Shown here: in pieces, positions 45,436 to 60,650 of the stretch
Numbering within the stretch: the first letter of the stretch is position 1
How the letters are laid out: each line of letters starts with the position of its first letter
Source: Loktanella sp.
Lineage (GTDB): Bacteria; Pseudomonadota; Alphaproteobacteria; Rhodobacterales; Rhodobacteraceae
DNA: 64,000 bases
Assembly: GCA_017390475.1 (NCBI GenBank)
Contig: JAFPBO010000001.1
Location: forward strand, 62,001-126,000
Direction: 5' to 3'
Notes under the pieces: generated by a model
Databases searched by the model: none
Told to the model about the DNA's origin: nothing
The model's input: the letters and a program-made list of their open reading frames with translations, nothing else
Program-made: the position numbers and the translations under genes

Positions 45436-46098
45436 TCAGCCGGGGGCGCGCAGCAGCAGAATCCGCACTGCCGCCTGCGCAGCGCCAAAGCCATTATCGA
45501 TATTCACCACCGTCAGACCGGGCGCGCAGCTGCCCAAGGCCGAGGTCAAGGCAGCATGTCCGCCTGCGGTGACGCCATGGCCGACCGCAACCGGCAGGGC
45601 GATGATAGGCGACTGGACCAGCCCGGCAAGGACGGAAAACAACGCGCCCTCCATCCCGGCGACGGCAATGATTACGTCAAAACTGCGGATCGTGTCGATC
45701 CGGTCGAGCAGCCGCCACAGACCCGCAACCCCGACATCGGCGATCAGCACACTGTCATGGCCACAAAAGCGCAGGGTGCGGGCCGCTTCGGTCGCGGCGG
45801 GCAGATCGGCCAGCCCGCCGGTCACGATCACAACGCGGGGCTGACCTGACAATGGCGGCAACAGCCCCGCGAATGCGGTGCGCGACACCGGGTCATAATC
45901 CAGCCCGTCGCGCAATTCCGCTGGCAGCGCTTCATATTGGTCGGGTTGCAGCCGGGTCAGCAGCAGGGGGTGGTTCGTCTGCTGCGCCTCGGTCAAAAGC
46001 GCTGTCAGATGGGCGGATGACTTTGCCTCTGCCAGCACTGCTTCGGGAAGGCCGGTGCGCCGGGAACGATCCCAATCCATCAGCGGGGCGGCGGTCAT
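45436..46098 (-). CDS. larB: Nickel-pincer cofactor biosynthesis protein LarB
   Basis: LarB carboxylates and hydrolyses nicotinic acid adenine dinucleotide, the first step to the nickel-pincer nucleotide. This 220-residue protein has the LarB N-terminal part (MDWDRSRRTGLPEAVLAEAK) and a PurE/AIR-carboxylase-like core: VVIVTGGLADLPAATEAARTL, VGVAGLWRLLDRI, VAGMEGALFSVLAGLV and ALPVAVGHG. The ATG at 46098 overlaps the larE stop (ATGA). Last gene of larC-larE-larB. Confidence 0.93.
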   Translation of the reverse strand: MTAAPLMDWDRSRRTGLPEAVLAEAKSSAHLTALLTEAQQTNHPLLLTRLQPDQYEALPAELRDGLDYDPVSRTAFAGLLPPLSGQPRVVIVTGGLADLPAATEAARTLRFCGHDSVLIADVGVAGLWRLLDRIDTIRSFDVIIAVAGMEGALFSVLAGLVQSPIIALPVAVGHGVTAGGHAALTSALGSCAPGLTVVNIDNGFGAAQAAVRILLLRAPG

Positions 46099-46892
46099 CG
46101 GGCCGCACCATGCAAGAAGGCAGAGCCTTGCCGGTACTTTGTCACCCCGGTAAATGGGCGGCCCGCTGCGGCGCAAAACGGGGCTGCAAGATCATGCAGC
46201 CCGGTCAGCGGCGCGTCGGTTTCAACGCTGACGCCAGCCCGGCGAATCCGGATGCGCAGGGTGCTGGTGGCTGGAATGCCGGCCCGTAACAAAGCCTCCA
46301 ATTGATCGACAAAGGCCAGATCAGCCGGATCAATCCGGATACCGGTTTCGATCCGGCTGGCCAGACAGGGCTGGGCAGGCAATTCGGCAAAATCCAGCGC
46401 GGCATCACGCGCCAGATTGCGGATATCGGCCTTGGAAATTCCCGCCTCGACAAAAGGATGCCGGATACCATGCTCTGCCGCCGCCGCCAGGCCAGGACGA
46501 AAATCACCCAGATCATCGGTATTCGTGCCGCTGGCGATATGACCGCCGCCTTGCTGGCTGTGCCGGGCGGCAATGTCGCGCAGAATGCCACTATAAAGGT
46601 TGGATTTGCAGAAATAGCAGCGATTGACCGGATTACTGCGATAGTTTTCGTCGCCAAATTCGCCGGTCTGCAGAATATGCAGATCCCAGCCCTCGGCCTT
46701 GGCTTGGCGGCTTATCAGCTCTTCTGCGGCGGCGGGCACGGCGGGCGATGTTGCATGGCACATCCGCACCTGTCCGGGCAGATGCCGGTGCGCCAGCGTG
46801 GCCAGTGTCATACTGTCAACGCCGCCGGAGACAGCGATGGTCCAGAACCCGCCTTCGGACAGGACAGCGCAGAGCCGGTCCAGCGCCGTCAT
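46095..46892 (-). CDS. larE: Nickel-pincer cofactor sulfur transferase LarE
   Basis: LarE adenylates the pyridinium dicarboxylate and inserts sulfur twice. 265 residues, PP-loop ATP motif AVSGGVDSMT at 20-29. Three Cys are placed at C92 and C95 (NRCYFCKSNLY) and C176 (AQPCLASRI). Some LarE proteins give up a single Cys sulfur; others with this CxxC plus Cys pattern hold an iron-sulfur cluster and recycle. This one looks like the cluster type, which is inference. ATGA overlaps on both sides. Confidence 0.93.
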   Translation of the reverse strand: MTALDRLCAVLSEGGFWTIAVSGGVDSMTLATLAHRHLPGQVRMCHATSPAVPAAAEELISRQAKAEGWDLHILQTGEFGDENYRSNPVNRCYFCKSNLYSGILRDIAARHSQQGGGHIASGTNTDDLGDFRPGLAAAAEHGIRHPFVEAGISKADIRNLARDAALDFAELPAQPCLASRIETGIRIDPADLAFVDQLEALLRAGIPATSTLRIRIRRAGVSVETDAPLTGLHDLAAPFCAAAGRPFTGVTKYRQGSAFLHGAAR

Positions 46893-48091
46893 GCGCCGCT
46901 GCCATCTTCGGTTCTGGCCCGGGTCGCGCGGCGTGCCGCCAGCGTCGCGATGTCACGCAGATCATCATGTTCCACCTTGACCGTCGCCCCCGCCGGGCGG
47001 TCGGCGCGTTTCAGGCGGCGTCCGTCCGGCGCTGTTCCGGCCCGCCGGGTCAGCACATGGCGCGTCGTATCGCTGCGCCGCAACCCGATGGTGGAGGTTT
47101 CGTCAAAGATCGCCGTCACGGCCGCATCCGCCCGGTCCGGTCGGACCAGCAGGTCGAAACGCACAGCGGGCCGTCCCTTTTTGCCAGTCGCGGCAACCAG
47201 CGTCACGTCCTGCACCCCATCCAGCCCGCGCAGATGATCGGCGGCGCAGCCAATTTCTTCGCCGGTCATATCGTCGATGTCAAAGCTTAACAGGGTGATC
47301 GTCTCGGACCGGATCATCGGCAGCGGCGGCGTCTCTGTTTCATAGATTGTGGCGCGCAGAATATTGGGCAAACCGGCAAACCGGCGCGTACCAGCACCAT
47401 AGCCGATCTGGCGCGATATCCCGCCTGCATTGCGCCCGTTGCCGGCCCCTGCCGTCAGATGCGCAAGGATGGCAGCGCCGGTCGGCGTCACCCGCTCGCC
47501 TGCTAGGCCATCATCATGCCAGTCATAACCTTTCAGGATGGCTGCAGTGGCCGGGGCAGGGACCGGCAGTAAACCATGTGCCGTCCGTACCGTGCCACGC
47601 CCGGTGGGCAGGGGGCCACAGCTCCACCCGCTTTGTGCCAATGCCGCTGACAGGCTACCAGCGGCAACGACATCGACCAAAGCGTCCCAGTCGGATAATT
47701 CGTGAAAATGCACCTGATCAAGAGGCACATTGTGAATGGCGGCCTCTGCCTGCGCAAGCAGGGTCAGAATATCAACCGCCGCCGTCGCGGTTCCCGGCGC
47801 GAGTGTTGCCTTTTCGAGGCAGGCCAGAAAATCGGTAAAATGCCGCAAAGGACCGTGGTGATGGCCGTCGTTGTCTTGCCGCACCTGTTGTGGGCAAAAA
47901 CGGAAACCCGCCGCAGCCAGACCTGACACATCGGTCCTGTGCAACGCATAGGATCCGACTTGGCTGGGCAGCACAGCGACAATATCGGCGAACACCCGGT
48001 CCTGCAGGTCAGGCCGCGCGTCCAGCATGGCGGCGACGAACATATCCCCGGCCAGCCCGCCAACCGGATCAAGGTGAATATGTAATGTCAT
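46889..48091 (-). CDS. larC: Nickel-pincer cofactor nickel-insertion protein LarC
   Basis: LarC uses CTP to put nickel into the pincer nucleotide. 400 residues in one unbroken frame; in Lactiplantibacillus the gene is split by a programmed frameshift. It shows the N-terminal LDPVGGLAGDMFVAAMLDA, a His-rich loop DNDGHHHG (nickel-binding type), VHFHELSDWDALVDVVAA and a C-terminal GRRLKRADRPAGATVKVEHDD. It begins 45 nt after the GntR regulator gene on the same strand. Confidence 0.93.
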   Translation of the reverse strand: MTLHIHLDPVGGLAGDMFVAAMLDARPDLQDRVFADIVAVLPSQVGSYALHRTDVSGLAAAGFRFCPQQVRQDNDGHHHGPLRHFTDFLACLEKATLAPGTATAAVDILTLLAQAEAAIHNVPLDQVHFHELSDWDALVDVVAAGSLSAALAQSGWSCGPLPTGRGTVRTAHGLLPVPAPATAAILKGYDWHDDGLAGERVTPTGAAILAHLTAGAGNGRNAGGISRQIGYGAGTRRFAGLPNILRATIYETETPPLPMIRSETITLLSFDIDDMTGEEIGCAADHLRGLDGVQDVTLVAATGKKGRPAVRFDLLVRPDRADAAVTAIFDETSTIGLRRSDTTRHVLTRRAGTAPDGRRLKRADRPAGATVKVEHDDLRDIATLAARRATRARTEDGSGA

Positions 48092-48136
48092 GGTCTGGCC
48101 CGGTTCATCGACAGGGCAGGGGTCGGGTCCAAGGCT

Positions 48137-48955
48137 TCACTCCCCAAACCGTTTGCGCCATGTGGCGATATAATAGTCCTTTGCCGGTGCCAGATGACGG
48201 GCGCAGGCTGCGACCAGCAGTTCCCGGTCGCCGCTCCGACAGGCCTGGGTCATGATCCGGTGCTCTGACGCGGCCCATTCCAGATATTCTTTCTGGGTCA
48301 CAAAGACCGACCGGTAAGCATGTGATTTTTGTGCAAATATATCAATGGCTTCGACCAGCGCCGGATTGCCGCAATGGGAAAACAGGCTGCGGTGAAATTC
48401 GATATTGATCCGGAAAACATTGCGCTGATCATCCGAGGCAATAGCCGCAGCATGGCGCGACTGGATATCCTCTAGCTGTTGCAGCGCCGCTTCGGGCAGC
48501 GGCAACGGGATCAGCGATGCGGCGTGGACTTCGATCAATTCGCGCACGGCGTTGATATCTTCCACCTCTTGCGCCGAATAGGCACGCACGACAGCGCCGC
48601 GATTGCGGATCCGTTCGACCAACCCGAGGTTTTCCAACGCAATCAGCGCCTGCCGGACCACGTGGCGTTTGACGGAAAATTCCTCGCACAGCTCGTCCTC
48701 GATCAGCCGTTCGCGTGGGTTCAGCTGGCCCAGAACGATTTTTTCTTCCAGTTTACGGGTCACCGCTTCGGGCGTATCCGCCCCGTTTTCTTCCCCGCGG
48801 GGAAGGTTACTGCTCCCATCAGGTGCAAAGTTTTTCAACGCGCCAACCCTTTTGTCGATCATTCCTGCGCTACAACTTGCACTTGCTGCGCGCTTTTTCA
48901 ATAAAAGAGCGTCAGCATGGCAGGTTGATTGCACAGCATCAAGCACTCCACTCAT
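48137..48955 (-). CDS. FCD-type GntR regulator of the hydroxy-acid locus
   Basis: A regulator of about 272 residues. The winged helix (about 60-130) reads LEEKIVLGQLNPRERLIEDELCEEFSVKRHVVRQALIAL and the FCD domain has NIEFHRSLFSHCGNPALVEAI and the ASEHRIMTQACRSGD metal-site helix. The start is uncertain: ATG 48955 overlaps the tctA stop (ATGA), but an ATG at 48862 would drop an unusual 31-residue leader. It lies between tctA and larC on one strand, so it likely controls transport, catabolism and cofactor genes together. Confidence 0.87.
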   Translation of the reverse strand: MSGVLDAVQSTCHADALLLKKRAASASCSAGMIDKRVGALKNFAPDGSSNLPRGEENGADTPEAVTRKLEEKIVLGQLNPRERLIEDELCEEFSVKRHVVRQALIALENLGLVERIRNRGAVVRAYSAQEVEDINAVRELIEVHAASLIPLPLPEAALQQLEDIQSRHAAAIASDDQRNVFRINIEFHRSLFSHCGNPALVEAIDIFAQKSHAYRSVFVTQKEYLEWAASEHRIMTQACRSGDRELLVAACARHLAPAKDYYIATWRKRFGE

Positions 48956-50499
48956 GATTGTTGCGAAGATCGCACGCGACGCAGGCCGATGCCGATCCAC
49001 CGGAACAACGGCGTGGCTTGGAGGATCGACAGGAAGGCGATGACCAGCAATACAGCGGAAATCTTGCTTTCAAAGAACACCATCCAGCTGCCGCCGCCGA
49101 TCAGCAAGGATTGCTGCAGGCTGGTATCCAGCACAGGACCAAGGATCAGTCCGATCACCAGGGGTGGTGTCGGTACCTTGCAGCTGTCCAGCAGGAAGCC
49201 CAGAAACCCAAAGCCCAGCATCAGCCAGATATCGAATACCGAATTGTTGATCGCAAAGGCCCCGATGATCGACAGCACGATGATCACCGGCCCGACAACG
49301 CGGTTCGGAATCTTGGTGACGGAAATGCAGGCGCGGGTGAACATGATGCCCACGACGAACAGCGCGATATTGGCAAAAAAGACCGCCCAGAGCAGCGTAT
49401 AGGTAACCGCGCCATGATCCGTCATCAGGGTCGGGCCCGGCAGAATGCCATGCACCATCAGCCCGCCCAGCAGCACTGCGGTGGCTGACGAACCGGGAAT
49501 ACCCAGCGCGATCGTCGGGATCAACGACCCGCCGACCACCGCATTATTGGCCGCTTCCGGCGCGACGATGCCGGGGGTATGGCCCGTACCAAACTTTTCC
49601 TTTTCGCGCGAAAACCGCTTTGCCTCGTTATAGGCGAACCAGGATGCGGTATCGCCGCCGGTCCCGGGGATCAGCCCGACGATCACACCGATCACGCCAG
49701 AGCGCAGGCTGTTGGGCAGCATCTCGATGAATTGCCGGCCTGTTGGCAGCATCCGGTCCTTGATCTTGGACACGGTCTTGACCATGCCGCCGGGTGCATC
49801 CTCGGTCATCGTCTTGGCTTTGTCGCCATCAACGATCAGCCGGATCGCCTGTGGCACCGAAAACAGCCCGATCAGCGCGACGGTGAAAGGGACGCCGCCG
49901 AACAGGCTCAGGTTATCCATCGTAAACCGCGGCGTACCGGTGGTAGGGTCCATGCCGATCGTGCCCAGCAACAGGCCCAATGCGCCTGCCAACAGCCCCA
50001 ACACGGCAGAACCGGTGGACAGTGACCCGATAATCGTCATGCCCAGCACTGCGATAGCAAAGATCTGCACTGGTCCAAAATTCAGTACCAGCGCGCCCAG
50101 CAAAGGCGCGACTGTCAGCAGGACGATGGATGACAACAGCCCGCCGATCAGCGATGCCGTCAGCGAGAACCCCAGCGCCTTGCCCGCTTTGCCCTGTTGC
50201 GCCAGCGGAAAGCCATCGATTACCGTGGCCGCCGCCGCTGGTGTACCGGGGGTGCGCAGCAATATAGCCGCGATTGACCCGCCATACATCGCCCCCAGAT
50301 AGAGCGAGGCGAGCAAGGCGAGCCCGGTTTCGGGGCGGAATGAAAAGGTCAAAGGCAACAACAGCGCGATCGCCATGGTCGCAGACAGACCCGGCATCGC
50401 CCCGATGAACATGCCGATCAGCGTGCCCAGCAGGATCGCAGCGATATTGATCGGATCAAGGACGTTGATCAGTCCGATCATCAGGAAACTGTCTGGCAT
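48952..50499 (-). CDS. tctA: Tripartite tricarboxylate transporter large permease (TctA)
   Basis: A 515-residue membrane protein with about 12 spans. TctA hallmarks: LIGMFIGAMPGLSATMAIALLLPLTF near the N-terminus, GGSIAAILLRTPGTPAAAATVIDGFP, GLIPGTGGDTASWFAYNEAKR and GIPGSSATAVLLGGLMVHGI. The family takes up citrate and other organic acids with sodium or protons. Follows tctB by 63 nt. Confidence 0.94.
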   Translation of the reverse strand: MPDSFLMIGLINVLDPINIAAILLGTLIGMFIGAMPGLSATMAIALLLPLTFSFRPETGLALLASLYLGAMYGGSIAAILLRTPGTPAAAATVIDGFPLAQQGKAGKALGFSLTASLIGGLLSSIVLLTVAPLLGALVLNFGPVQIFAIAVLGMTIIGSLSTGSAVLGLLAGALGLLLGTIGMDPTTGTPRFTMDNLSLFGGVPFTVALIGLFSVPQAIRLIVDGDKAKTMTEDAPGGMVKTVSKIKDRMLPTGRQFIEMLPNSLRSGVIGVIVGLIPGTGGDTASWFAYNEAKRFSREKEKFGTGHTPGIVAPEAANNAVVGGSLIPTIALGIPGSSATAVLLGGLMVHGILPGPTLMTDHGAVTYTLLWAVFFANIALFVVGIMFTRACISVTKIPNRVVGPVIIVLSIIGAFAINNSVFDIWLMLGFGFLGFLLDSCKVPTPPLVIGLILGPVLDTSLQQSLLIGGGSWMVFFESKISAVLLVIAFLSILQATPLFRWIGIGLRRVRSSQQS

Positions 50500-50562
50500 A
50501 GGCGGGTCCTCTTGGGAAGATGGCGGCAGATGAAGTGCCAGCGGTCAGTTGATGGGGGGCGT

Positions 50563-51009
50563 TCAGATCCGGGGGAACAAGGGGATCGGCAGGCGCAGAA
50601 AATTCACAAAGATCACCCAGATCGCCAAGGTGACGATTGCGGCAGTCAGCAGGATGATCCACGGCTTGGTCGCGCGCGCGATAAACAGGCTCGACAGCAG
50701 AAAGGCCGGTGTGGCGATCAGATAGCCGATCGATGTGATGGCCCAGGCGTAAAGGATAATCAGCGCGACAAAGACCGACCCGTCGCGGATGCGTGGCCAG
50801 GATGGCATGGTCAATGCATAGCGGCTGGCACCATCCGTTACCTGTCGCCACGCCAAAAGCTGCTGCACAATTGCCAGCAGCGCCAGACCGATCATCACGC
50901 TGGTGATCAGCTTGGGCAATTGTGCCGCGACGCGCGGATAACCCGCTGCCTCGTTGCGAAAGATCAGGGCGATGATGATCGCCGCCAGCGCCACCAGAAG
51001 TCTTGTCAT
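50563..51009 (-). CDS. tctB: Tripartite tricarboxylate transporter small permease (TctB)
   Basis: A 148-residue protein with four hydrophobic segments (first MTRLLVALAAIIIALIF, later VFVALIILYAWAITSIGYLIATPAFLLSS and two more). Includes the weakly conserved FPRVAAQLPKLI-like region GYPRVAAQLPKLITS seen in TctB. Lies between tctC and tctA with a hairpin before it. Confidence 0.88.
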   Translation of the reverse strand: MTRLLVALAAIIIALIFRNEAAGYPRVAAQLPKLITSVMIGLALLAIVQQLLAWRQVTDGASRYALTMPSWPRIRDGSVFVALIILYAWAITSIGYLIATPAFLLSSLFIARATKPWIILLTAAIVTLAIWVIFVNFLRLPIPLFPRI

Positions 51010-51054
51010 GCCAGCTTTATCCTTGTTCGAGCATCGTCACGCAGCACAGAAGAA

Positions 51055-51084
51055 GGCCGCCCATCTGTCAGCAGACGGGCGGCC
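51055..51084 (-). promoter_or_regulatory. Intercistronic stem-loop between tctC and tctB
   Basis: GGCCGCCCATCTG (51055-51067) pairs with CAGACGGGCGGCC (51072-51084), 13 pairs with one wobble on the transcribed strand and a 4-base loop. It starts eight bases after the tctC stop. Third hairpin in this window placed after a binding-protein gene; probably lets more TctC than TctAB be made. Confidence 0.65.
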
Positions 51085-51092
51085 ACAGTAGA

Positions 51093-52076
51093 TTACTGGT
51101 TTTGAACGTCGTCTTTGACTTCTTCCCAGATTGCGCTGAACTCGACGAACTGGTTTTCAAGGAAGGCTGTGTAGTCATCGCCGCCGATGAAATCGATGTT
51201 CATCGCCTGCGCCGCAGCAGCAGCCTGAAAATCAGGGTTCTCTGTCACGATACGCAGACCTTCGACCAATTGGTCGCGGATATCATCCGGCATCCCGGCA
51301 GGTGCGCTATAGCCGCGCGATGACCCGGCGACGACATCATAGCCCAATTCGCGGGCTGTCGGCACGTCAGGCAATTCGGGGATGCGCTCTTCGGAAAATA
51401 CGACCAGCGCACGTAGGTTGCCTGCCGCGATCTGCGGATAGGTGATGCCGACATTGTTGAAACTGACATCAATACTGTCACCCATGGCGGCCGTCATCGA
51501 CGGGCCGTCACCCTGAAAGGGGACCTTTTGAAACTCTACCCCGGCAGCGCGTTCGAACATGACCGAAGTGAAAAAGTCATCGCCGCCGACGCCGGAATTG
51601 CCAACTGTCAGGGTGCGTGGATTGTCACGCGCTGCGTTCAGCATATCCTCGAATGTTTCCAGCGGGCTGTTGGGCGATACTACGGCAAGGCCCGGGTCAG
51701 TCACCACATTGGCGATCGGTGTCAGTTCTTCGATCGTATAGGTGATTGCCGGATTCATTAGATAATTGGTCATCAACATCGGTGTGTTGGTGATGCTGAT
51801 GATCGTGCCGTCATTGGGTTCTTGTTTGGCCAGACGGGTCCAGGCGATAGCACCGGTGGCACCGGGCAGATACTGGTTGACGAAATTCACACCCAGCACT
51901 TCGGCCAGATAGGGCTGAACAAGCTGCGCCAGCGCGTCAGAGCCACCGCCCGCTGCAAAACCCTGCAGGACCGTCACTTCATTCGCTGCGGTATATTGCA
52001 TGTCTTGCGCAGCCAGTGGTGCGGCTGTCGCAATAGCAAGCGCGGAAGCGCAAGCCAGATACATTCTCTGTTTCAA
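51093..52076 (-). CDS. tctC: Tripartite tricarboxylate transporter substrate-binding protein (TctC)
   Basis: A 327-residue periplasmic receptor. Signal peptide MKQRMYLACASALAIATAAP then LAAQ. Family blocks: VLQGFAAGGGSDALAQLVQPYL, VNQYLPGATGAIAWTRLAK, TVGNSGVGGDDFFTSVMFE and the VPFQGDGPSMTAAMG ligand loop. The TTG at 52076 has GGGAGG 6 nt upstream; the open frame to 52091 includes that site. First gene of the leftward arm of the hydroxy-acid locus. Confidence 0.92.
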   Translation of the reverse strand: MKQRMYLACASALAIATAAPLAAQDMQYTAANEVTVLQGFAAGGGSDALAQLVQPYLAEVLGVNFVNQYLPGATGAIAWTRLAKQEPNDGTIISITNTPMLMTNYLMNPAITYTIEELTPIANVVTDPGLAVVSPNSPLETFEDMLNAARDNPRTLTVGNSGVGGDDFFTSVMFERAAGVEFQKVPFQGDGPSMTAAMGDSIDVSFNNVGITYPQIAAGNLRALVVFSEERIPELPDVPTARELGYDVVAGSSRGYSAPAGMPDDIRDQLVEGLRIVTENPDFQAAAAAQAMNIDFIGGDDYTAFLENQFVEFSAIWEEVKDDVQNQ

Positions 52077-52106
52077 AGTAAATCCTCCCATTTTCTCCGA
52101 GTCACA

Positions 52107-52172
52107 GCCTAGTCCGCGCCAAAACTAAATGTCAAACATATTATTGACAATCTGGGCGACAGTCTTTTTGAT
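52107..52172. promoter_or_regulatory. Divergent promoters sharing a palindrome, tctC and sugar-acid dehydratase
   Basis: TGTCAA (52130-52135) and TTGACA (52144-52149) form an inverted repeat with an 8-base spacer. Rightwards, TTGACA followed 17 bases later by TTTGAT (52167-52172) is a good sigma-70 promoter for the dehydratase operon. Leftwards, the other arm read in reverse is also TTGACA, with a weak -10 near 52106-52112. A repressor on this palindrome would shut both arms; the GntR at 48137-48955 is the candidate. Binding is inferred. Confidence 0.6.
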
Positions 52173-52200
52173 GAGCGTAGACATAAGGGGAGGCCAGATC

Positions 52201-53952
52201 ATGAGTGGCGCAGACAAAGACGACAAACCCAGCGGCATGCGCAAAGGGTTGACCAGCTATGGCGATGCAGGGTTTTCCCTGTTTCTGCGCAAGGCCTTTA
52301 TCAAAGGCATGGGCTATACGGACGAGGCGCTGGACCGCCCGATTATCGGCATCGTTGATACGGGTAGCGGGTTCAATGCCTGCCACGGCAATATGGCCGA
52401 ACTGGTCGAGGCTGCGAAACGCGGCATTATGCTGGCGGGGGCCTTGCCGGTCGCATTTCCGACGATTTCGGTCCACGAATCCTTTTCCAACCCGACCAGC
52501 ATGTTCCTGCGCAACCTGATGTCGATGGATACCGAAGAAATGATCCGCGCCCAGCCGATGGATGCGGTGGTCATGATCGGTGGCTGTGACAAGACAGTGC
52601 CAGCACAGTTGATGGGGGCCGGTTCGGCAGGGTTGCCTGCGATCCAATTGGTCACCGGCCCGATGCTGACCGGCAGCCACCGTGGGCAAAAGGTCGGGGC
52701 CTGCACCGATTGCCGCCGGTTCTGGGCTGCTTATCGTGCTGGTGAAGTCGATGATCAGGAAATCGCCGATGTGAATGACCAGCTTGTCCCCGGTACTGGC
52801 ACCTGCGGTGTGATGGGTACAGCATCCACCATGGCGATGGTGACCGAAGCCCTAGGCATGATGCTGCCCGGCGGCAGCACCGCACCTGCGGTCTCCGCCG
52901 ACCGGCGGCGGATTGCGGAACAGACCGGCAAGATCGCGGTGCAGATGGCAGCGCAAAACCTGACGCCGGACAAGATCATGACCCGCGCGGCATTCAAAAA
53001 CGCGCTGACGGTGCTTTTAGCGATTGGCGGCTCCACCAATGGGCTGATCCACCTGTCTGCCATTGCAGGCCGCATGGGCATCCAGATTGATCTTGCCGAA
53101 TTCGATGCCATCGGGCGGAATATCCCGGTGCTGGTCGATCTCAAACCATCCGGCCAGCATTATATGCAGGACCTGCATGCTGCCGGCGGGCTTGTGACAG
53201 TGCTGCGTGAATTGCGCCCCTATCTGGACCTTGATTGCCTGACCGTAACGGGCCGGACGCTGGGCGAAGAAATCGACGCAGCTCCCGCCAGCTTTGCGCA
53301 GGATATCGTCACCCCCCGCGACAAGCCGATTTATCACCAAGGTGGGATGGCGGTGCTGACCGGCAACCTCGCCCCCGGTGGTGCGATCATCAAGCAATCC
53401 GCAGCCTCGCCCGATCTGATGGTGCATCGTGGGCGCGCTGTTGTGTTTACCTCGATTGAGGATATGGCCGCGCGCGTCGATCACCCTGATCTGGATGTGA
53501 CCAAGGATGATATCCTAGTGCTGCAAAACGCAGGGCCGAAGGGTGCGCCGGGGATGCCGGAGGCGGGCTATATGCCGATCCCGCGCAAGATCGCGGCGCA
53601 GGGCGTGAAGGACATGGTCCGCATTTCCGATGCAAGGATGAGCGGGACCGCCAGCGGCACCATCGTGCTGCATGTCACACCCGAAAGCGCGCAGGGTGGT
53701 CCTTTGGGTCTGGTCCGTGACGGGGATGAGATTGAACTGGACGTGACCGCCCGCAAAATCACCCTGCATGTGGACGAGGCAGAGCTGGACCAGCGTCGCA
53801 AGGATTTTGTCGCCCCCGATCATGTCGGGTCGGACCGGGGATACAAGAAGTTGTTCCTCGATTCCGTGCTGCAGGCCGATGGCGGTTGCGATTTCGATTT
53901 CCTGCAACCGACCAGCATCCGCAGCAATGCGGGTTATGGGTCCAAGTCGTGA
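52201..53952 (+). CDS. IlvD/Edd-family sugar-acid dehydratase
   Basis: A 583-residue dehydratase with a [2Fe-2S] cluster that removes water from a sugar acid to give a 2-keto-3-deoxy acid. Cluster Cys are C61 (NACHGNMAEL), C129 (IGGCDKTVPAQ) and C202 (GTGTCGVMGTAST), at spacings matching known arabinonate-type dehydratases. The GGGGAGG site selects 52201. Sugar-acid subgroup rather than amino-acid IlvD because of the neighbours and FAAYRAG region, but the substrate is not deducible. First gene of the rightward operon. Confidence 0.9.
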   Translation: MSGADKDDKPSGMRKGLTSYGDAGFSLFLRKAFIKGMGYTDEALDRPIIGIVDTGSGFNACHGNMAELVEAAKRGIMLAGALPVAFPTISVHESFSNPTSMFLRNLMSMDTEEMIRAQPMDAVVMIGGCDKTVPAQLMGAGSAGLPAIQLVTGPMLTGSHRGQKVGACTDCRRFWAAYRAGEVDDQEIADVNDQLVPGTGTCGVMGTASTMAMVTEALGMMLPGGSTAPAVSADRRRIAEQTGKIAVQMAAQNLTPDKIMTRAAFKNALTVLLAIGGSTNGLIHLSAIAGRMGIQIDLAEFDAIGRNIPVLVDLKPSGQHYMQDLHAAGGLVTVLRELRPYLDLDCLTVTGRTLGEEIDAAPASFAQDIVTPRDKPIYHQGGMAVLTGNLAPGGAIIKQSAASPDLMVHRGRAVVFTSIEDMAARVDHPDLDVTKDDILVLQNAGPKGAPGMPEAGYMPIPRKIAAQGVKDMVRISDARMSGTASGTIVLHVTPESAQGGPLGLVRDGDEIELDVTARKITLHVDEAELDQRRKDFVAPDHVGSDRGYKKLFLDSVLQADGGCDFDFLQPTSIRSNAGYGSKS

Positions 53953-54986
53953 CCACAGTCCCAGCCAGCGATCTGGGCGATTTCGCGACGCGGCTACTCG
54001 CGGGCGGGGGGCTTGACCCCGCCTATGCCGCGATTGTCGCTGATGTGCTGGTCGAAGGTGATCTGATGGCGCATCCGACGCATGGCGTGGCGCTGCTGCC
54101 CAGCTATATGAATGAGATCCGCAAGGGCCGGATGACGCTGTCGGGCCAACCCGAAAAGCGCAGCAATGGCGCCAGTGTCGAGACTTGGGATGGCTGCTGG
54201 TTGCCCGGCCCGGTGCTGGTGCGGGACGCGCTGGATGCCGCCTGCACCAAGGCGCGGGCGACCGGGATGGGGGCGGTAACCATAGCGCGCAGCCAGCATA
54301 TCGCTTGCCTTGCTGCCTATCTGCTGCCGGTGACCGAGGCTGGGTTTGCCGCGATCATCACCTCATCCTCACCCACCACGCAATCGGTGGCCCCTTACGG
54401 CGCGACCGAAGGTGTCTATTCACCTAACCCCATCGCCGCGGGCTGGCCGACCCAGGGTGATCCGGTGATCTTTGACATCTCGATGTCGATCACGACCAAT
54501 GGGCTGGTGGCGCAGAAGAAGGCCGAAGGCGAAGCCATGCCGGGCCTCTGGCTCACGGATGCTGATGGCAGCCCCACGGATGATCCAAATGTCATCGGCC
54601 AAGGCGGCGCGCTGATGCCGATGGGCGGGGTGGATCACGGGCATAAAGGCTTTGCTTTGGGTTTGCTTGTCGAAATGCTGACCTCTGGCCTTGCCGGTTT
54701 CGGGCGTGCCGATGTGCCGGACCGCTGGGGCGCGGCGGTCACCATCCTCGTTTTCGATCCCGCCCGTTTCGGCGGGGCAGAGGCGTTTTGTCGCCAGACG
54801 GATCATATCGTCACCGCCAGCCGAGCTGCTGCCGTACCGGACGGTGCTTCGCCGGTCCGTATCGCAGGCCAACAGGCGCTGCGGCGGCGCGCCGAACAAC
54901 TTGAACATGGGATTACCCTCTCGCAATCGCTGGTCGCACAGATCAGCGCGCTGGACCCCAATATTCCCTTTCCAACCAAAGGATAA
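53949..54986 (+). CDS. Ldh-family NAD(P)-dependent oxidoreductase
   Basis: A 345-residue protein of the malate/L-lactate dehydrogenase (Ldh_2) family, which includes ureidoglycolate, 2,3-diketogulonate and L-lactate-type enzymes. Blocks seen: GDLMAHPTHGVALLPSYMNEI, a substrate/cofactor section VAPYGATEGVYSPNPIAAGWPT and GVDHGHKGFALGLLVEMLTSGL. The GTG at 53949 overlaps the dehydratase stop (GTGA). It probably oxidises or reduces a 2-hydroxy/2-keto intermediate of the pathway. Confidence 0.88.
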   Translation: MTTVPASDLGDFATRLLAGGGLDPAYAAIVADVLVEGDLMAHPTHGVALLPSYMNEIRKGRMTLSGQPEKRSNGASVETWDGCWLPGPVLVRDALDAACTKARATGMGAVTIARSQHIACLAAYLLPVTEAGFAAIITSSSPTTQSVAPYGATEGVYSPNPIAAGWPTQGDPVIFDISMSITTNGLVAQKKAEGEAMPGLWLTDADGSPTDDPNVIGQGGALMPMGGVDHGHKGFALGLLVEMLTSGLAGFGRADVPDRWGAAVTILVFDPARFGGAEAFCRQTDHIVTASRAAAVPDGASPVRIAGQQALRRRAEQLEHGITLSQSLVAQISALDPNIPFPTKG

Positions 54987-54990
54987 ACCG

Positions 54991-55926
54991 ATGACCACAC
55001 TCACCCCGCACAAGGGCGTTCTGTCGCCCGTCGTCACCCCGTTTGATGCCGACCTGCGCCCCGATATTGCGCGCCTTGCCGCGCAATGCCGCTGGCTGTT
55101 GTCCAGTGATGTCGGGCTGGCGATCTTTGGCACCAATTCAGAGGCCAATTCGCTGGGCCATCAGGAACGGATCGCGATCCTTGACGGGCTGGTCGAGGCG
55201 GGTATTCCCGTGGACCGGATGATGCCCGGTACTGGGACCTGTGCGTTGACCGATACGGTCGATCTGACGGCGCGCGCTGTCAAACATGGCTGCGCCGGGG
55301 TGCTGATGCTGCCGCCCTTCTATTACAAAGGCGTCAGCGATGATGGTCTGTTCGCGCATTTTGCGGAAGTGATCGAACGGGTTGGGGACGAAAAACTGCG
55401 GGTCTATCTGTATCATATCCCGCCCGTCTCGCAGGTGCCCTTGTCGCTGGACCTGATCGAACGGCTGCTGAAAGCCTATCCCAAGGCCATCGCAGGGGTG
55501 AAGGATTCGGGCGGTCAGTGGGAGAACACCGCCGCGATGATCAGCAATTTTGGCGATGAGGGCTTTGACGTCTTTGCCGGGTCCGAGGCGTTTTTGCTGC
55601 AGACCATGCGGGCGGGCGGCAAAGGCTGCATCTCGGCCACGGCCAACGTCAACCCTGCGGCGATTGCGGCGCTTTATGAAAACTGGCAGGCCGATGATGC
55701 CGATGCCCAGCAGGCGGCATTGACCGCAACACGGGGGATTTTCCAATCCTATCCGATGATCCCTGCGCTGAAAGCCGCCGTTGCGCAGCATTCTGAGGAT
55801 GACACCTGGTTCAACGTACGTCCGCCTTTGGTCGGGCTGACCATGGATCAGCGGCGCAACCTTGCTGCTGATCTTGCGGCAGTTGATTTCGACATGCCTG
55901 GTTTGAAGGAAGCGTCCCATGGCTGA
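54991..55926 (+). CDS. DapA-family aldolase/dehydratase
   Basis: A 311-residue member of the dihydrodipicolinate synthase/N-acetylneuraminate lyase family. It has the TPF segment near residue 16, the GTNSEANSL loop (family GTTGE), YLYHIPP with Y141 and the Schiff-base Lys K171 in AGVKDSGG. The family includes 2-keto-3-deoxy-sugar-acid aldolases and dehydratases, which fits the operon. AAAGGA site upstream. Overlaps the next gene by 8 nt. Confidence 0.9.
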   Translation: MTTLTPHKGVLSPVVTPFDADLRPDIARLAAQCRWLLSSDVGLAIFGTNSEANSLGHQERIAILDGLVEAGIPVDRMMPGTGTCALTDTVDLTARAVKHGCAGVLMLPPFYYKGVSDDGLFAHFAEVIERVGDEKLRVYLYHIPPVSQVPLSLDLIERLLKAYPKAIAGVKDSGGQWENTAAMISNFGDEGFDVFAGSEAFLLQTMRAGGKGCISATANVNPAAIAALYENWQADDADAQQAALTATRGIFQSYPMIPALKAAVAQHSEDDTWFNVRPPLVGLTMDQRRNLAADLAAVDFDMPGLKEASHG

Positions 55927-57466
55927 AGCGCAAACCAAAAAACGGCGCGGCCCGGCGATCCGGTTGCATGACGACGACAATGTGGTGATCGCCTATGTGC
56001 CGATTGATCCCGGCACCGAAATCCCCGGCGAAGGTGTCACCACTCGCACGCCGGTGCCTGCCGGTTACAAGATCGCGACCCGTGCAATTGCGGCGGGCGA
56101 GCCGGTGCGCAAATATAATGTGACCATTGGTTTCGCGTCCAAGGACGTCACGCCCGGCACGATGCTGCACAGCCACAACATGGAATTCCGCGAATTCGAC
56201 CGCGCGCCGAACCATGCGACCGAATATGTGCCGACACAGGTGCTGCCGGTCGAGGAACAGGCGACGTTCCAAGGCATCATCCGCGCTGATGGCCGGGTGG
56301 CGACGCGCAATTACATCGGGATTTGCAGTTCGGTCAATTGTTCGGCCACGGTGATCCGCATGATCGCGGCGCATTTCACGCCGGAGAAACTGGCCGACTA
56401 TCCCAATGTCGATGGCGTCGTGGCCTTTGCCCATGGGCTTGGCTGCGGCATGGAAATGTCGGGCGAGCCGATGCAATTGCTGCGCCGCACGATTGCCGGT
56501 TTTGCCACGCATCCCAACCTTGCCGGGGCCTTGATCATCGGGCTGGGCTGCGAACGTAACCAGATCGCGGGGATGATGGCGCAAGAGGGGCTGTCCACCG
56601 GACCCCGCCTGCTGAACCTGACGATGCAGGAAACGGGCGGCACCCGTGCGACAATCGCCGCCGGGATTGCAGCAGTGGAAGAAATGCTGCCAGAGGCGAA
56701 TGCGGTTGAGCGTGTTCCTGTGCCGGTCAGCCATCTGAAAATCGGCTTGCAATGTGGCGGGTCGGACGGGTTTTCTTCGATCACCGCCAACCCGGCCTTG
56801 GGCCATGCCGTCGATATCCTGTCCCGCCACGGCGGCACCGCGATCCTGTCGGAAACGCCAGAGATTTATGGCGTGGAACATACGCTGACCCGGCGCGCGC
56901 AGACTGTGGAAGTTGGCGAAAAACTGATTGACCGCATCCGCTGGTGGAAAGAGGAATATTCCCCTGGGCGCGATGTGCAGATCAATGGCGCGGTCAGCCC
57001 CGGCAACCAGATCGGCGGCCTGGCGAATATCCTCGAAAAATCGCTTGGCTCTGCGATGAAAGGTGGCACCGGTCCCTTGATGGAGGTGTATCGCTATGCC
57101 GAAAAGGTCACGCAACCGGGGCTGGTGTTCATGGATACGCCGGGCTTTGATCCGGTCTCGGCCACCGGCCAGATCGCAGGCGGGGCCAATCTGATCTGCT
57201 TTACCACCGGACGCGGGTCGATGTTTGGGTCCAAACCAGCGCCAGCGATCAAGATCGCGACCAATACGGCGATGTATTCACGATTGACCGAGGATATGGA
57301 CCTGAATGCGGGCGTGATCCTTGACGGCGATGCGACACTCGAAGAAGTCGGGATGCAGATATTCGAGGAAATGATTGCCGTCGCATCCGGTAAGAAGACC
57401 AAAAGCGAAGAACTGGGCCTTGGCGATAATGAATTCGTGCCGTGGAGCATCGGCATCATGAGCTGA
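55919..57466 (+). CDS. UxaA-family (altronate/galactarate-type) dehydratase
   Basis: A 515-residue iron-dependent sugar-acid dehydratase. The N-terminal SAF domain (about 15-95: IRLHDDDNVVIAY ... LHSHNMEF) is followed by the central catalytic region with GIIRADGRVATRNYIGICSSVNCSATV, HGLGCGM, LIIGLGCERNQI and GLQCGGSDGFSSITANPALG. N- and C-terminal parts that are often separate in altronate dehydratase (UxaA1/UxaA2) are fused here. A second dehydratase in one operon suggests a branched pathway or two related substrates. Confidence 0.9.
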   Translation: MAEAQTKKRRGPAIRLHDDDNVVIAYVPIDPGTEIPGEGVTTRTPVPAGYKIATRAIAAGEPVRKYNVTIGFASKDVTPGTMLHSHNMEFREFDRAPNHATEYVPTQVLPVEEQATFQGIIRADGRVATRNYIGICSSVNCSATVIRMIAAHFTPEKLADYPNVDGVVAFAHGLGCGMEMSGEPMQLLRRTIAGFATHPNLAGALIIGLGCERNQIAGMMAQEGLSTGPRLLNLTMQETGGTRATIAAGIAAVEEMLPEANAVERVPVPVSHLKIGLQCGGSDGFSSITANPALGHAVDILSRHGGTAILSETPEIYGVEHTLTRRAQTVEVGEKLIDRIRWWKEEYSPGRDVQINGAVSPGNQIGGLANILEKSLGSAMKGGTGPLMEVYRYAEKVTQPGLVFMDTPGFDPVSATGQIAGGANLICFTTGRGSMFGSKPAPAIKIATNTAMYSRLTEDMDLNAGVILDGDATLEEVGMQIFEEMIAVASGKKTKSEELGLGDNEFVPWSIGIMS

Positions 57467-57486
57467 TCGGAAGAAGGAAGACGACA

Positions 57487-58770
57487 ATGAGCGATGTGAT
57501 TGCCAAAGTGCTCGACCCTGTGAGCCTGCCGCGCATGGTGCCGGTGCGGCAGATTTTCACCGATGATGCCTTGCCCGATATCGCAGGTGCTGTGCGCGGG
57601 CAGATCGCGCGGCCCGATATCGCCGCAAGGGTGCGCCCCGGCATGTCCATCGCGGTGGGCGTGGGCAGTCGCGGCCTTGCCGATTTGCCGGTCTTGGTCG
57701 CTACCGTTATTGCGGCGCTCAAAGACCTTGGTGCTGTCCCTTTCATTGTGCCCGCCATGGGCAGCCACGGCGGGTCCAGTGCGGAAGGCCAGCGTAAAAT
57801 GCTCGCCTCGCTTGGCGTGACAGAGCAAAGCGCAGGCTGCGAAATCCGGTCCAGCATGGAGACGGTCGAGATCGGGCGTTTGCCAAACGGCTTGCCCATT
57901 GCGATGGACAAGATCGCCATGGCGGCGGATGGTATCGTCGTGATCAACCGGGTCAAACCGCATACCAGTTTCAGCGGCACCATCGAAAGCGGGTTGGCCA
58001 AGATGATTACCATCGGGCTGGGCAAACAGGTCGGCGCGGATGCCTGCCATATGCTGGGTTTTGGCCATATGGCGGAGCAGGTGATCGCGATGACTAAGGT
58101 CAAGATCGCCAAGACAAAGGTGCTGTTTGGTCTGGCGACGGTCGAAAATGCCTATGACCATATCAAACTGGTCGAGGCGGTAGGGGCCGAGGATATTCTG
58201 GCGCGCGAGGCAGAACTGCTCGACATCGCGCGGGGCTGCATGCCGCGCATTCTGTTCAGTCCGCTGGATGTGCTGGTCGTAGACCGGATGGGCAAGAATT
58301 TTTCCGGCACCGGGACTGACCCGAATATTACCGGGCGCGCGGCGACACCCTATTTGCGGCTGACGCAGGAGGTGGGCAAGATGGTGATCCTTGATCTGGA
58401 CGACCGCAGCCATGGCAATGCGGCTGGGGTCGGGCTGGCCGATATCTGCACAAGGCGGCTGGTCGATAAGATCGATTATGAAGCGACTTACATGAACCAC
58501 ATCACCTCGACCGCGCTGGTCGGGGGTAAGTTGCCGGTCGTGATGGAGCATGACCGCCATGCCGTGCAATTGGCGGTCAAGACCTGCAATGCGATGCCGG
58601 GGCTTGGGCTGCGAATGGTGCGCCTGTCCGATACATTGCATCTGGAACGTATCCTGATTTCCGAAACCATGCTGGATGATGCAAAGGCGCATGATCAGAT
58701 TGAGGTGCTGGGCGATCCGGTGCCGTGGGATTTTGATGCGGATGGCGGCTTGCAGGGACGCGCAGTCTGA
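57487..58770 (+). CDS. LarA-domain protein, probable nickel-pincer hydroxy-acid racemase/epimerase
   Basis: A 427-residue protein with a LarA-type N-terminal domain (DUF2088). Residues that match lactate racemase are H94 (MGSHGG), H159 (VKPHTSFSG), K172 (GLAKM, the pincer-bound Lys) and H188 (ACHML, nickel ligand). The K-to-H spacing of 16 equals that of LarA; the H-to-K gap is 13 instead of 10. Homologues act on other 2-hydroxy acids. It shares an operon with sugar-acid enzymes, and larC-larE-larB lie on the other arm. So it is likely a C2 racemase or epimerase for the imported acid; not proven. Confidence 0.82.
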   Translation: MSDVIAKVLDPVSLPRMVPVRQIFTDDALPDIAGAVRGQIARPDIAARVRPGMSIAVGVGSRGLADLPVLVATVIAALKDLGAVPFIVPAMGSHGGSSAEGQRKMLASLGVTEQSAGCEIRSSMETVEIGRLPNGLPIAMDKIAMAADGIVVINRVKPHTSFSGTIESGLAKMITIGLGKQVGADACHMLGFGHMAEQVIAMTKVKIAKTKVLFGLATVENAYDHIKLVEAVGAEDILAREAELLDIARGCMPRILFSPLDVLVVDRMGKNFSGTGTDPNITGRAATPYLRLTQEVGKMVILDLDDRSHGNAAGVGLADICTRRLVDKIDYEATYMNHITSTALVGGKLPVVMEHDRHAVQLAVKTCNAMPGLGLRMVRLSDTLHLERILISETMLDDAKAHDQIEVLGDPVPWDFDADGGLQGRAV

Positions 58771-58797
58771 ATTCAGATAAGTCAGGACAGGCACATC

Positions 58798-60207
58798 ATG
58801 GCGGCACCGCTGGGCATTCTGATGGTCGCCCTGATCTTTGCGCAATTACTGGCACGGATCACCGACAATCCGCTGGCACAGATGGCAACCTGGATGATTG
58901 CCGGTTGCGTCGTCGTCTTGGCGCGCAAATCCATGGGACTGCGCGAAGCCTATCTGCTGGCGCTCAGCGCGGTGCTGGCCGGATTGCTTGTGGTTTGGGG
59001 GAGTGATCCGGCGGGCGATATCGCGTCCGCATTGGATCAGGCAACCTTTCTGATGACCTTCATCCTGTTGATGGGGCTGCTGCATGAGGCGGCCTCGACA
59101 TCGCCTTCTGTCGAAAGTTGCGGACGCTATCTGACCCAGCAGCCCGCCGGACGGCAATATCCTGCACTTTATACCGGCACTGGTGTCATGGCCGTGTTGT
59201 TCAATCTGGGTGTCGTCAGCTTTCTGGTGCCTTTGGTCCGTCGGGGGATCGCCGCCGCGACACCGGGTGACGCGCAGAACCCGACCCGTGAACGCCGCCA
59301 GATCAGCGCGGTGTTGCGCGGTTTTGCCTGGTCAGTTGTCTGGTCGCCCACGGCCATTGCGCCCTTGGCGGTGGTCGAGCTGATCCCCGGCGTCAACCGG
59401 CCGCTGTGGATCGGGCTGGGCTTTGGTATTTATCTGGCGATGCTGCTGCTGGGGGCGGTCGAAGACCGGCTGCGGTTTCGTGGGTTTCTGTTCGACAAGG
59501 ACCGGCCTGCAGCGCCGTTTCCGTTGCTCGCCGCTACACTGTTCTTTGCGGCCTGCGGCGTGATGTTCATGATGACCCTGATCGCAATGTGGCTGACCGG
59601 CGATACCGTCGTGTTCGGCTTGATGCTGGCCTGCCCGGCGATGTTGATCGGCTGGGTGGGTGCGCAATATCTTCAACCGGCCGGGCAACCGCAGATGGTC
59701 GCCGCACAACAAGCCCTTACGGCGACTGGGCGGCGCTTGCATCACATCATCACGATCAACCTACCGAAATCAGCGGCTATTGCGGTGACTTTGGGTTGTT
59801 CGGGCTTTGTCGGACGCGCTGCTGCGACGCTCATGCCTGCTGACGCGCTGGCCTCTGGTCTGGGCATTTACGCGATGCCGGATTTTGTGCTGCTCTCGCT
59901 GATCCCTGTGTTGCTGAGTCTGCTGAGCTTGCTTGCCCTCAGCCCGATCATGATGGCTGTGTTTTTCGGCAGCCTGTTCGGTTCGTTGGAGGTGATGCCC
60001 GCAAATCCCACGCTGATCGCGCTGTCGATTTCCTGCGGCTGGGCCTTGTCGATGACCTTTTCGCCCTTTGCAACGGTTGTGCTGCTGATCGACCGGGTCG
60101 CGGGGATACCACCGCGACGGCTGACATGGGGCTGGAACCTGACCCATGCCGGGCTCAGCGCAATTGCCCTGGTCCCGGTTTTCGCCCTGCTTGCATGGTG
60201 GGTGTGA
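58798..60207 (+). CDS. Polytopic membrane protein, probable organic-acid permease
   Basis: A 469-residue protein with about twelve hydrophobic segments. It has two similar polar turn motifs, FNLGVVSFLVPLVRRG plus WSPTAIAPLAVVEL in the first half and MTFSPFATVVLLIDRVAG in the second, as in ion-transporter superfamily permeases. I cannot name the family. It ends the sugar-acid operon, so it may export a product or import a second acid. A hydrophilic stretch of Arg-rich loop (RERRQ) separates the halves. Confidence 0.7.
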   Translation: MAAPLGILMVALIFAQLLARITDNPLAQMATWMIAGCVVVLARKSMGLREAYLLALSAVLAGLLVVWGSDPAGDIASALDQATFLMTFILLMGLLHEAASTSPSVESCGRYLTQQPAGRQYPALYTGTGVMAVLFNLGVVSFLVPLVRRGIAAATPGDAQNPTRERRQISAVLRGFAWSVVWSPTAIAPLAVVELIPGVNRPLWIGLGFGIYLAMLLLGAVEDRLRFRGFLFDKDRPAAPFPLLAATLFFAACGVMFMMTLIAMWLTGDTVVFGLMLACPAMLIGWVGAQYLQPAGQPQMVAAQQALTATGRRLHHIITINLPKSAAIAVTLGCSGFVGRAAATLMPADALASGLGIYAMPDFVLLSLIPVLLSLLSLLALSPIMMAVFFGSLFGSLEVMPANPTLIALSISCGWALSMTFSPFATVVLLIDRVAGIPPRRLTWGWNLTHAGLSAIALVPVFALLAWWV

Positions 60208-60244
60208 CGGGTTGACGACTGCGTTGGAATGTCACAATCTGGCG

Positions 60245-60445
60245 GCCGGATGGTTCCCGGAAAGCCAAAGCTGACCGGGATGAAAAGGGAACACGGTGCG
60301 GAATAGCCATCAGGCGCCAAACCCGTGACTGCCCCCGCAACTGTGAGCGGTGAGCGACCCCGAGAATGCCACTGGACCAGCTACAGGTCCGGGAAGGTTT
60401 GGGGAAGTGTCGACCCGCAAGTCAGGAGACCTGCCATCCGGGGTG
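60245..60445 (+). ncRNA. Cobalamin riboswitch
   Basis: A B12 riboswitch: GGTTCCCGG opening, GGGAACACGGTGC, CCGTGACTGCCCCCGCAACTG, GCCACTGG, GGGAAGG and the B12-box GTCAGGAGACCTGCC at about 60421-60435. Downstream are a GGTGTC-GCAA-GACACC hairpin (60442-60457) and a GC-rich hairpin at about 60473-60490 next to the AGAGG site of the first ORF, likely the expression platform. It should lower expression of the BtuDFC-like genes when cobalamin is plentiful. Confidence 0.93.
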
Positions 60446-60500
60446 TCGCAAGACACCTGAATGTAATGCGACCCGGGCGGGGTGCCCCGGAAAAGAGGTC

Positions 60501-60650
60501 ATGATGGCAAGACAACGGCTGATGCCGACAGAATTGGTCTGTTCCGACTTTTTGCAAGCCCCGCTTTGGCGCGGAGGGCTGCATGGAACAATCGAAACCA
60601 CAAACCACAACTTTCATCATCGTCGGAAAGGACCGCAGGTGCGGGCTTGA
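60501..60650 (+). CDS. Tiny ORF after the B12 riboswitch
   Basis: A 49-residue frame starting ATGATG with AGAGG 4-8 nt upstream, directly after the riboswitch. The product has no recognised domain (Arg/His-rich C-terminus). It overlaps the next tiny frame in another register. It may be a leader peptide, a remnant, or not expressed. Confidence 0.35.
   Translation: MMARQRLMPTELVCSDFLQAPLWRGGLHGTIETTNHNFHHRRKGPQVRA

Follow-up and report, generated by a model that had tools for sequence, protein, structure and literature searches.

Gene content and organization of the locus

The genes considered here lie at positions 45436 to 60207 of a 64-kb stretch of a Loktanella sp. genome (GenBank assembly GCA_017390475.1, contig JAFPBO010000001.1, positions 62,001 to 126,000), the whole of which is referred to as the window. 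A preliminary description of this stretch had placed larC, larE, and larB, genes for synthesis of the nickel-pincer nucleotide (NPN) cofactor, on the same strand as tctCBA and a GntR gene, with genes for two dehydratases, an oxidoreductase, a DapA-type enzyme, a LarA-domain protein, and a permease running divergently. Profile searches of the window found all of the named genes at these places and on these strands. From the center outward, the minus strand carries tctC, tctB, tctA, the gene for a GntR/FCD regulator, larC, larE, and larB, and the plus strand carries genes for an IlvD/Edd-type dehydratase, an Ldh_2-family oxidoreductase, a DapA-type enzyme, a UxaA/GarD-type dehydratase, and a LarA homolog, followed by a gene for a membrane protein.

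45436 to 46098, minus strand: larB, NPN cofactor synthesis (NF033503, 241.0 bits, cutoff 175; listed open reading frame 45436 to 46176, ATG at 46098)
46095 to 46892, minus strand: larE, sacrificial sulfur transferase (TIGR00268, 226.5 bits, cutoff 150)
46889 to 48091, minus strand: larC, nickel insertion, C1 and C2 parts in one open reading frame (TIGR00299 for LarC1, 172.7 bits, cutoff 90; NF052512 for LarC2, 90.0 bits, cutoff 50)
48137 to 48862, minus strand: GntR/FCD regulator (PF07729, PF00392)
48952 to 50499, minus strand: tctA, large membrane subunit of a tripartite tricarboxylate-type transporter (PF01970, 486.8 bits)
50563 to 51009, minus strand: tctB, small membrane subunit (PF07331, 51.8 bits)
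51093 to 52091, minus strand: tctC, periplasmic binding protein (PF03401, 136.4 bits)
52130 to 52149, no strand: palindrome TGTCAA-N8-TTGACA, probable shared operator of divergent promoters (from sequence)
52201 to 53952, plus strand: IlvD/Edd-type sugar-acid dehydratase, L-arabinonate-dehydratase-like (PF00920, PF24877; NF004784)
53949 to 54986, plus strand: Ldh_2-family oxidoreductase (PF02615, 283.7 bits)
54991 to 55926, plus strand: DapA/NanA-family aldolase or dehydratase (PF00701, 132.4 bits)
55919 to 57466, plus strand: UxaA/GarD-type sugar-acid dehydratase (PF20629, PF04295 [GD_AH], PF08666 [SAF])
57487 to 58770, plus strand: larA homolog, NPN-dependent isomerase group 22, probable C2-epimerase (NF052515)
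58798 to 60207, plus strand: membrane protein with about 12 hydrophobic segments, possible second permease (hydropathy)

LarB, LarE, LarC1, and LarC2 all scored above the curated NCBI cutoffs, and the TctABC set was complete, with Pfam matches for the large and small membrane subunits and the binding protein. Several of the starts first listed for the open reading frames were too early; the likely starts, which are a judgment among in-frame start codons, are 46098 for LarB, 48862 for GntR, 52201 for IlvD, 53949 (GTG) for Ldh_2, 54991 for DapA, and 57487 for LarA. The larA start lies 20 nt past the end of uxaA. The designation of the last plus-strand product as a permease is in keeping with its 12 hydrophobic segments, but no Pfam or NCBIfam model matched this protein. 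Relatives of it (47 to 64%) occur in three Rhodobacterales plasmid records, two of which (L121 and L122) have no annotated lar gene within 9 kb.

The IlvD/Edd-type protein exceeded the cutoff of NF004784 (PRK06131 subfamily; 854.1 bits, cutoff 539) and scored 688.1 bits against the L-arabinonate dehydratase model (PRK13016), below the cutoff of 882. The UxaA/GarD-type protein has both the SAF and the GD_AH domains, and its cysteines 136, 176, 211, and 279 are spaced like four conserved cysteines (134, 173, 208, and 276) described previously (PMC6336799). For the Ldh_2 protein, no NCBIfam equivalog scored above its cutoff.

Conservation and regulation of the two arms

The tct and ilvD arms diverge from a single 109-bp intergenic region that holds the palindrome, each half of which is a TTGACA hexamer facing one arm. 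The exact sequence occurs once in the 4.13-Mb genome. Within the window, one copy with at most one mismatch was observed compared to 0.13 expected, and at least one such copy was present in 12 of 100 shuffles. Among 130 loci, many of which are short stretches, the palindrome was detected in four (L016, L017, L018, and L109), in the same intergenic region, and in all four a gene for a GntR relative (60 to 68%) adjoins tctA. The natural reading of a shared, unique palindrome and a GntR gene beside tctA is joint control of both arms, probably exerted by the GntR/FCD protein at positions 52130 to 52149. The sequence thus gives no sign of the separate regulation of the arms that the preliminary description had named as evidence against its interpretation.

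The same divergent tct/ilvD pair is present in these four loci, of which L109 lies on a 598-kb plasmid of Loktanella salsilacus and L016, L017, and L018 come from three genomes of the order. The five tct-type loci represent three gene arrangements, in which larA and larBCE switch arms. In the window, larCEB are part of the tct arm and larA is part of the ilvD arm; in L109, the ilvD arm holds both larA and larBCE; and in L016 to L018, the tct arm holds larA and the ilvD arm holds larCEB. The co-occurrence of both arms that the preliminary description had predicted for relatives was thus found, in two further gene orders. Because the arms have exchanged genes yet remained together, they appear to form one unit. 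Ldh_2 is present in all five loci, DapA has an 80% match and the membrane protein a 64% match in L109, and the membrane protein was not matched in the 20-kb stretches of L016 to L018.

The module in L109 is flanked by IS30 (4760 to 5392) on one side and by IS6/IS3/IS6 (20707 to 23716) on the other, and of 22 genomes in the genus of the window, just 1 has a group 22 LarA. Therefore, the module is probably mobile.

The group 22 LarA homolog

The LarA homolog was assigned to NF052515, "nickel pincer cofactor-dependent isomerase, group 22" (521.6 bits compared to a cutoff of 400), and matched Pfam Lar_N (32.5 bits, cutoff 23.3). It is the sole match at an E value of ≤1 in its own genome. Sequence comparison with solved LarA structures was too weak to place the protein: the only match was a marginal one to 2yjg (phmmer, protein; E value, 0.022), and in a profile comparison 2yjg had an E value of 0.51, with unrelated chains scoring equally. 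A fold search was therefore used. With an AlphaFold2 model built from 14 sequences (pLDDT, 86.1), all 17 Foldseek matches at an E value of ≤0.001 were LarA-family structures (best, 9eia at 3.0e-12; TM, 0.47 to 0.57 by query length).

Residues R63, H95, H160, K173, H189, and K271 were invariant in all 98 aligned rows, which comprise the window and 97 loci and contain 97 distinct sequences. The sequences of L020 and L083 are identical; these two loci are apparently one record and were not counted twice among the loci of the genome scan described below. L028 was excluded from this alignment by the score threshold; the same protein, as L015, keeps H95, H160, K173, and H189 in the 14-row alignment. 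H95 and H160 were matched to the catalytic histidines of LarA by sequence pattern rather than by superposed coordinates. K173 and H189 have the same 16-residue spacing as the cofactor lysine and nickel-ligand histidine of LarA, K184 and H200 (PMC11770544), whose counterparts in LarA_Sp are Lys195 and His211 (PMC12611868, excerpt). The conserved residues and this spacing make it very likely that the protein binds NPN and retains both acid/base histidines. A single-histidine LarA of the group 17 type, in which Asn replaces the second catalytic histidine, was ruled out by the presence of His in all 98 rows.

The second histidine is followed by T161 and S162 in the window protein (T at 161 in 83 of 98 rows and A or S at 162 in 80 of 98). 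The published pairs at this place are F,F in lactate racemases and E,V in D-gluconate 2-epimerases, the latter with A,H further on (PMC11770544). In LarA itself, the second pair of specificity residues is W358 and T359. A D-gluconate 2-epimerase of the published type was ruled out by the absence of the E,V signature. The designation LarAH22 does not occur in the main text of PMC7583248, and neither a tested member nor a named substrate of group 22 was found in the papers covered.

History of the cofactor genes

Group 22 LarA scored above its cutoff in 14 of 390 Rhodobacterales genomes, and LarB did so in 20. All 14 genomes are among these 20, with both genes on one contig and within ∼21 kb. 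The grouping is not due to chance, because LarB accompanies group 22 LarA in all 14 genomes.

In a tree of 34 hand-picked rows of the 98, one clade (support, 98/97) united LarA from the five tct-type loci with that from L029. For LarC of the same loci, a single clade was rejected (p-AU, 1.1e-5). The trees of LarB, LarC, and LarE each had three separate branches, and L109 stood beside L028 in those of LarC and LarE. That LarA forms one clade while LarC does not indicates that larC, at least, joined the module more than once or was replaced, and repeated joining fits a real need for the cofactor. Independent recruitment of all three cofactor genes was upheld for LarC only, p-AU being 0.087 for LarE and 0.13 for LarB; fast divergence of LarB and LarE may be an alternative. 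Identity between the window and L109 was 79 to 90% for LarA, DapA, TctC, IlvD, UxaA, and TctA, 64 to 68% for GntR, Ldh_2, TctB, and the membrane protein, and only 49 to 50% for LarB, LarC, and LarE.

Gene neighborhoods of group 22 larA

A scan of the genome collection found at least 563 stretches that encode a relative, not all of which need be group 22. Eighty loci were taken from that scan, and the counts use the 46 that extend for 7.5 kb or more in both directions (full loci), with the 34 shorter ones excluded. Neighbors were detected with chosen queries (blastp; E value, ≤1e-10), and the counts are raw, without matched control loci. Since 41 of the 46 full loci are from Bacillota, the rows are not independent, and counts by genus are also given.

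UxaA was found in 26 of the 46 full loci, IlvD in 23, MR/MLE in 13, and IlvD or MR/MLE in 25. UxaA together with IlvD or MR/MLE was present in 20, and any of the three dehydratases in 31. By genus, the count was 23 of 32 for any dehydratase and 14 of 32 for both kinds. Genes for Tct or TRAP transporters were found in 27 full loci, and larB, larC, or larE was found in 12. In the Rhodobacterales, 12 of 14 group 22 loci (the window, L016 to L018, L020 to L025, L027, and L028) had UxaA or IlvD in the stretch, and L019 and L026 had neither within theirs. A UxaA relative at an E value of ≤1e-150 occurs in 179 of 390 Rhodobacterales genomes, and a chance match within 20 kb was roughly estimated at well below 1%. 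A strict dependence of UxaA on LarA was rejected, as UxaA relatives at 62% identity lie outside lar loci.

Two loci contain pointers to aldonates. L081 has a D-galactonate dehydratase (645 bits, cutoff 311) beside UxaA and LarA, as well as a 27% match to Ldh_2, and on a Smithella contig (L032, 1995 to 5510) LarA is followed by two KDPG-type aldolases, a 2-keto-3-deoxygalactonokinase, and a 2-hydroxyacid dehydrogenase. In Paenibacillus cellulositrophicus, genes for glucuronate isomerase, LarA, and an SDR protein lie together with larE, larB, and larC. The preliminary description had spoken of a hydroxy acid as the substrate; the neighborhood counts narrow this to a sugar acid, probably an aldonate.

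In the Bacillaceae and related bacteria, large parts of a long operon recur, with genes for a TRAP transporter, LarA, an IlvD-like protein of ∼735 amino acids, IclR, and an FAH-type hydrolase; UxaA, an aldehyde dehydrogenase, DapA, and lar genes are often present as well (L036, L037, L039 to L042, L044 to L048, L050 to L052, L054 to L056, L058, L059, and L063). One of these, L048, is labeled Pseudomonas sp. ISL-84 and shows the Bacillaceae gene order; it is possibly mislabeled or contaminated.

Proposed pathway and alternative explanations

UxaA-type and IlvD/Edd-type dehydratases take substrates that are configured oppositely at C2 as well as at C3. A UxaA/GarD-type dehydratase has been reported to use D-arabinonate and, with weak activity, D-altronate, L-fuconate, and L-galactonate, all with the same configuration at C2, C3, and C4; D-idonate, which is the substrate of a close relative, agrees with D-arabinonate at C2 and C3, and L-arabinonate and D-xylonate are used by IlvD/Edd-type enzymes (PMC6336799, excerpt).

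We propose that the locus may function as a single regulated unit that degrades sugar acids, namely aldonates and possibly aldarates. Judging from protein families, TctABC, and perhaps the last membrane protein too, would import the acid, and LarB, LarE, and LarC, whose chemistry is known from their families, would make NPN. With this cofactor, group 22 LarA would reversibly invert C2 of an aldonate by proton-coupled hydride transfer. The IlvD/Edd-type enzyme would dehydrate acids with the C2/C3 configuration of D-xylonate and L-arabinonate, and the UxaA/GarD-type enzyme would dehydrate those with the configuration of D-arabinonate and D-altronate. As dehydration erases both stereocenters, all routes would converge on a 2-keto-3-deoxy acid, which the DapA-type enzyme would cleave or dehydrate; the Ldh_2 oxidoreductase would act before or after that step, and the GntR regulator would act at the single palindrome between the arms. 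With opposite preferences at C2 and C3 and both centers lost, a C2-epimerase would make the remaining two diastereomers usable, and for a LarA encoded beside IlvD and UxaA, C2 epimerization appears to be the most parsimonious role. An aldonate C2-epimerase that feeds both dehydratases is the explanation that we favor, with somewhat better than even confidence. Its most complete form, a stereochemical funnel in which one nickel C2-epimerase and two dehydratases of opposite preference bring all four C2/C3 diastereomers to the same 2-keto-3-deoxy acid, is put forward tentatively and is more doubtful than probable.

Several observations weigh against an aldonate C2-epimerase working with both dehydratases. 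Two loci, L127 and L132, have UxaA (70 to 71%), IlvD (68%), and DapA (63 to 64%) without a LarA match, and the MR/MLE enzyme encoded there may stand in for LarA functionally, or LarA may be dispensable. Of the 46 full loci, 15 contain none of the three dehydratases and 34 have no larB, larC, or larE within reach, and DapA was not matched in the 20-kb stretches of L016 to L018. A strict promoter scan of positions 51900 to 52400 gave no sigma-70 promoter, and one at the palindrome was rejected on this basis despite the TTGACA in each half. The T,S pair past H160 differs from the E,V of D-gluconate 2-epimerases in a comparison confined to the first residue pair, and the LarE and LarB trees alone do not reject one clade.

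LarA might instead act late in the pathway, on a small 2-hydroxy acid such as glycerate, lactate, or malate, with the dehydratases and aldolase upstream and Ldh_2 oxidizing one enantiomer. The Ldh_2 family includes malate, lactate, sulfolactate, and ureidoglycolate dehydrogenases, and its near confinement to the tct-type loci, in all five of which it is present, leaves room for such a substrate. The Ldh_2 match beside LarA in L081 and the 2-hydroxyacid dehydrogenase near group 22 larA in 15 of the 46 full loci point the same way. However, Ldh_2 was found in none of the full loci and in 1 of all 80 loci from the LarA scan, whereas UxaA and IlvD or MR/MLE recur; larA follows uxaA closely, and the F,F pair of lactate racemases is absent. 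Thus, it seems unlikely, though well worth considering, that a small acid is the substrate. Epimerization of an aldarate (galactarate, glucarate, or their C2 epimers), with the UxaA/GarD-type and DapA-type enzymes leading to 2-oxoglutarate semialdehyde, would agree with the window UxaA being nearer to Escherichia coli GarD (36.8%) than to E. coli UxaA (32.7%), with its sole solved full-length relative being a galactarate dehydratase, and with tct-type transporters, which are known for di- and tricarboxylates. The protein nevertheless missed the cutoff for galactarate dehydratase (TIGR03248; 388.4 bits compared to 730.85), DapA scored only 64.6 with the KdgD model, and the L-arabinonate-like IlvD here and the D-galactonate dehydratase elsewhere point to aldonates. 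We therefore regard an aldarate substrate as unlikely.

The group 22 protein could also use NPN for another reaction, such as hydride transfer to a neighboring carbon, on a substrate class not yet considered. The lack of a tested group 22 member in the papers covered and the marginal identity to solved LarA would allow this, but both inversion histidines are kept in every aligned row, unlike in the single-histidine group of PMC12611868, and the chance that such a reaction is the true one seems slim. Finally, the arms might be adjacent by chance, or be separate operons for different substrates with LarA as a passenger, as could be imagined from the movement of lar genes between arms and the sporadic occurrence of the module within the genus. 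Four relatives keep the set in other orders with a conserved divergent palindrome that is unique in the genome, which makes these two readings very improbable.

Comparison with known systems

GntE1 and GntE2 (groups 19 and 20) of Corynebacterium glutamicum and Thermotoga maritima are likewise NPN-dependent LarA homologs with two catalytic histidines, which act at C2 of aldonates and have a reported sugar-acid gene context (PMC7583248, excerpt; PMC11770544). The window protein differs in belonging to group 22, in having T,S rather than E,V, and in being encoded in a set with IlvD, UxaA, DapA, Ldh_2, Tct, and a full larBCE. LarA_Sp and LarA_Bw (group 17) share the LarA fold, and a carbohydrate gene context has been suggested for them, but they have Asn at the second catalytic histidine (PMC12611868, excerpt), where the window protein has His.

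The nonphosphorylative pentose pathways of Herbaspirillum and Paraburkholderia have similar UxaA-type D-arabinonate dehydratases and IlvD/Edd-type L-arabinonate/D-xylonate dehydratases, and DapA-family and related enzymes that act on 2-keto-3-deoxypentonates (PMC6336799, excerpt). A predicted NPN enzyme is present here, whereas that excerpt mentions none, and here both dehydratase types are in one operon. Homologous IlvD, DapA, UxaA, and GntR (42 to 43%) genes occur in Paraburkholderia aromaticivorans pBN1 (L127, 9001 to 19545) and Caballeronia sp. SBC2 (L132, 10809 to 22264). These two loci differ in having an MR/MLE enzyme and a gluconolactonase, with no match to LarA, larBCE, tct, or Ldh_2 in the stretches searched. 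A nonhomologous replacement of the nickel enzyme by the MR/MLE enzyme is possible in these loci. The larA-larBCE operon for lactate racemase in Lactiplantibacillus plantarum also has a LarA enzyme clustered with the cofactor genes, but the substrate, the pathway genes, and the regulator are different here.

Each of the components (LarA enzymes, larBCE, the two dehydratase families, and tct transporters) is already known, and some LarA groups have a published sugar-acid context (PMC7583248, excerpt; PMC12611868, excerpt). In titles and the beginnings of abstracts, no group 22 substrate and no description of this gene set was found; the supplementary gene-context table of PMC7583248 for 25 LarA groups was not covered. 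Within that scope, the literature agrees with the earlier statement that the combination had not been described.

Flanking genes

A cobalamin riboswitch (60234 to 60452; 135.4 bits) lies directly past the module and heads the next operon, which with genes for an ATP-binding cassette (ABC) ATPase, a periplasmic binding protein, and a FecCD permease (60234 to 63496) appears to be an ordinary operon for B12-type or related uptake. Inclusion of this region in the module was rejected, since the module in L109 is followed by other genes. Nickel supply by these ABC genes was likewise rejected: the best NCBIfam matches were F420-0, siderophore, and B12-type models, all below cutoff, and NikE was weak. 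On the other side, genes for oligopeptide-type ABC ATPases and a second GntR/FCD regulator (42418 to 45273) apparently form a separate operon.

Implications

The compact locus, with two dehydratases, its own cofactor genes, and one palindrome, offers a short substrate list and a testable genetic system. If the funnel were true, it would explain the retention of nickel-pincer chemistry in sugar-acid catabolism and would provide an enzyme that inverts C2 in sugar acids without protecting groups. In that case, group 22 would represent a widespread class of C2-epimerases for aldonates, to which cofactor genes were joined more than once.

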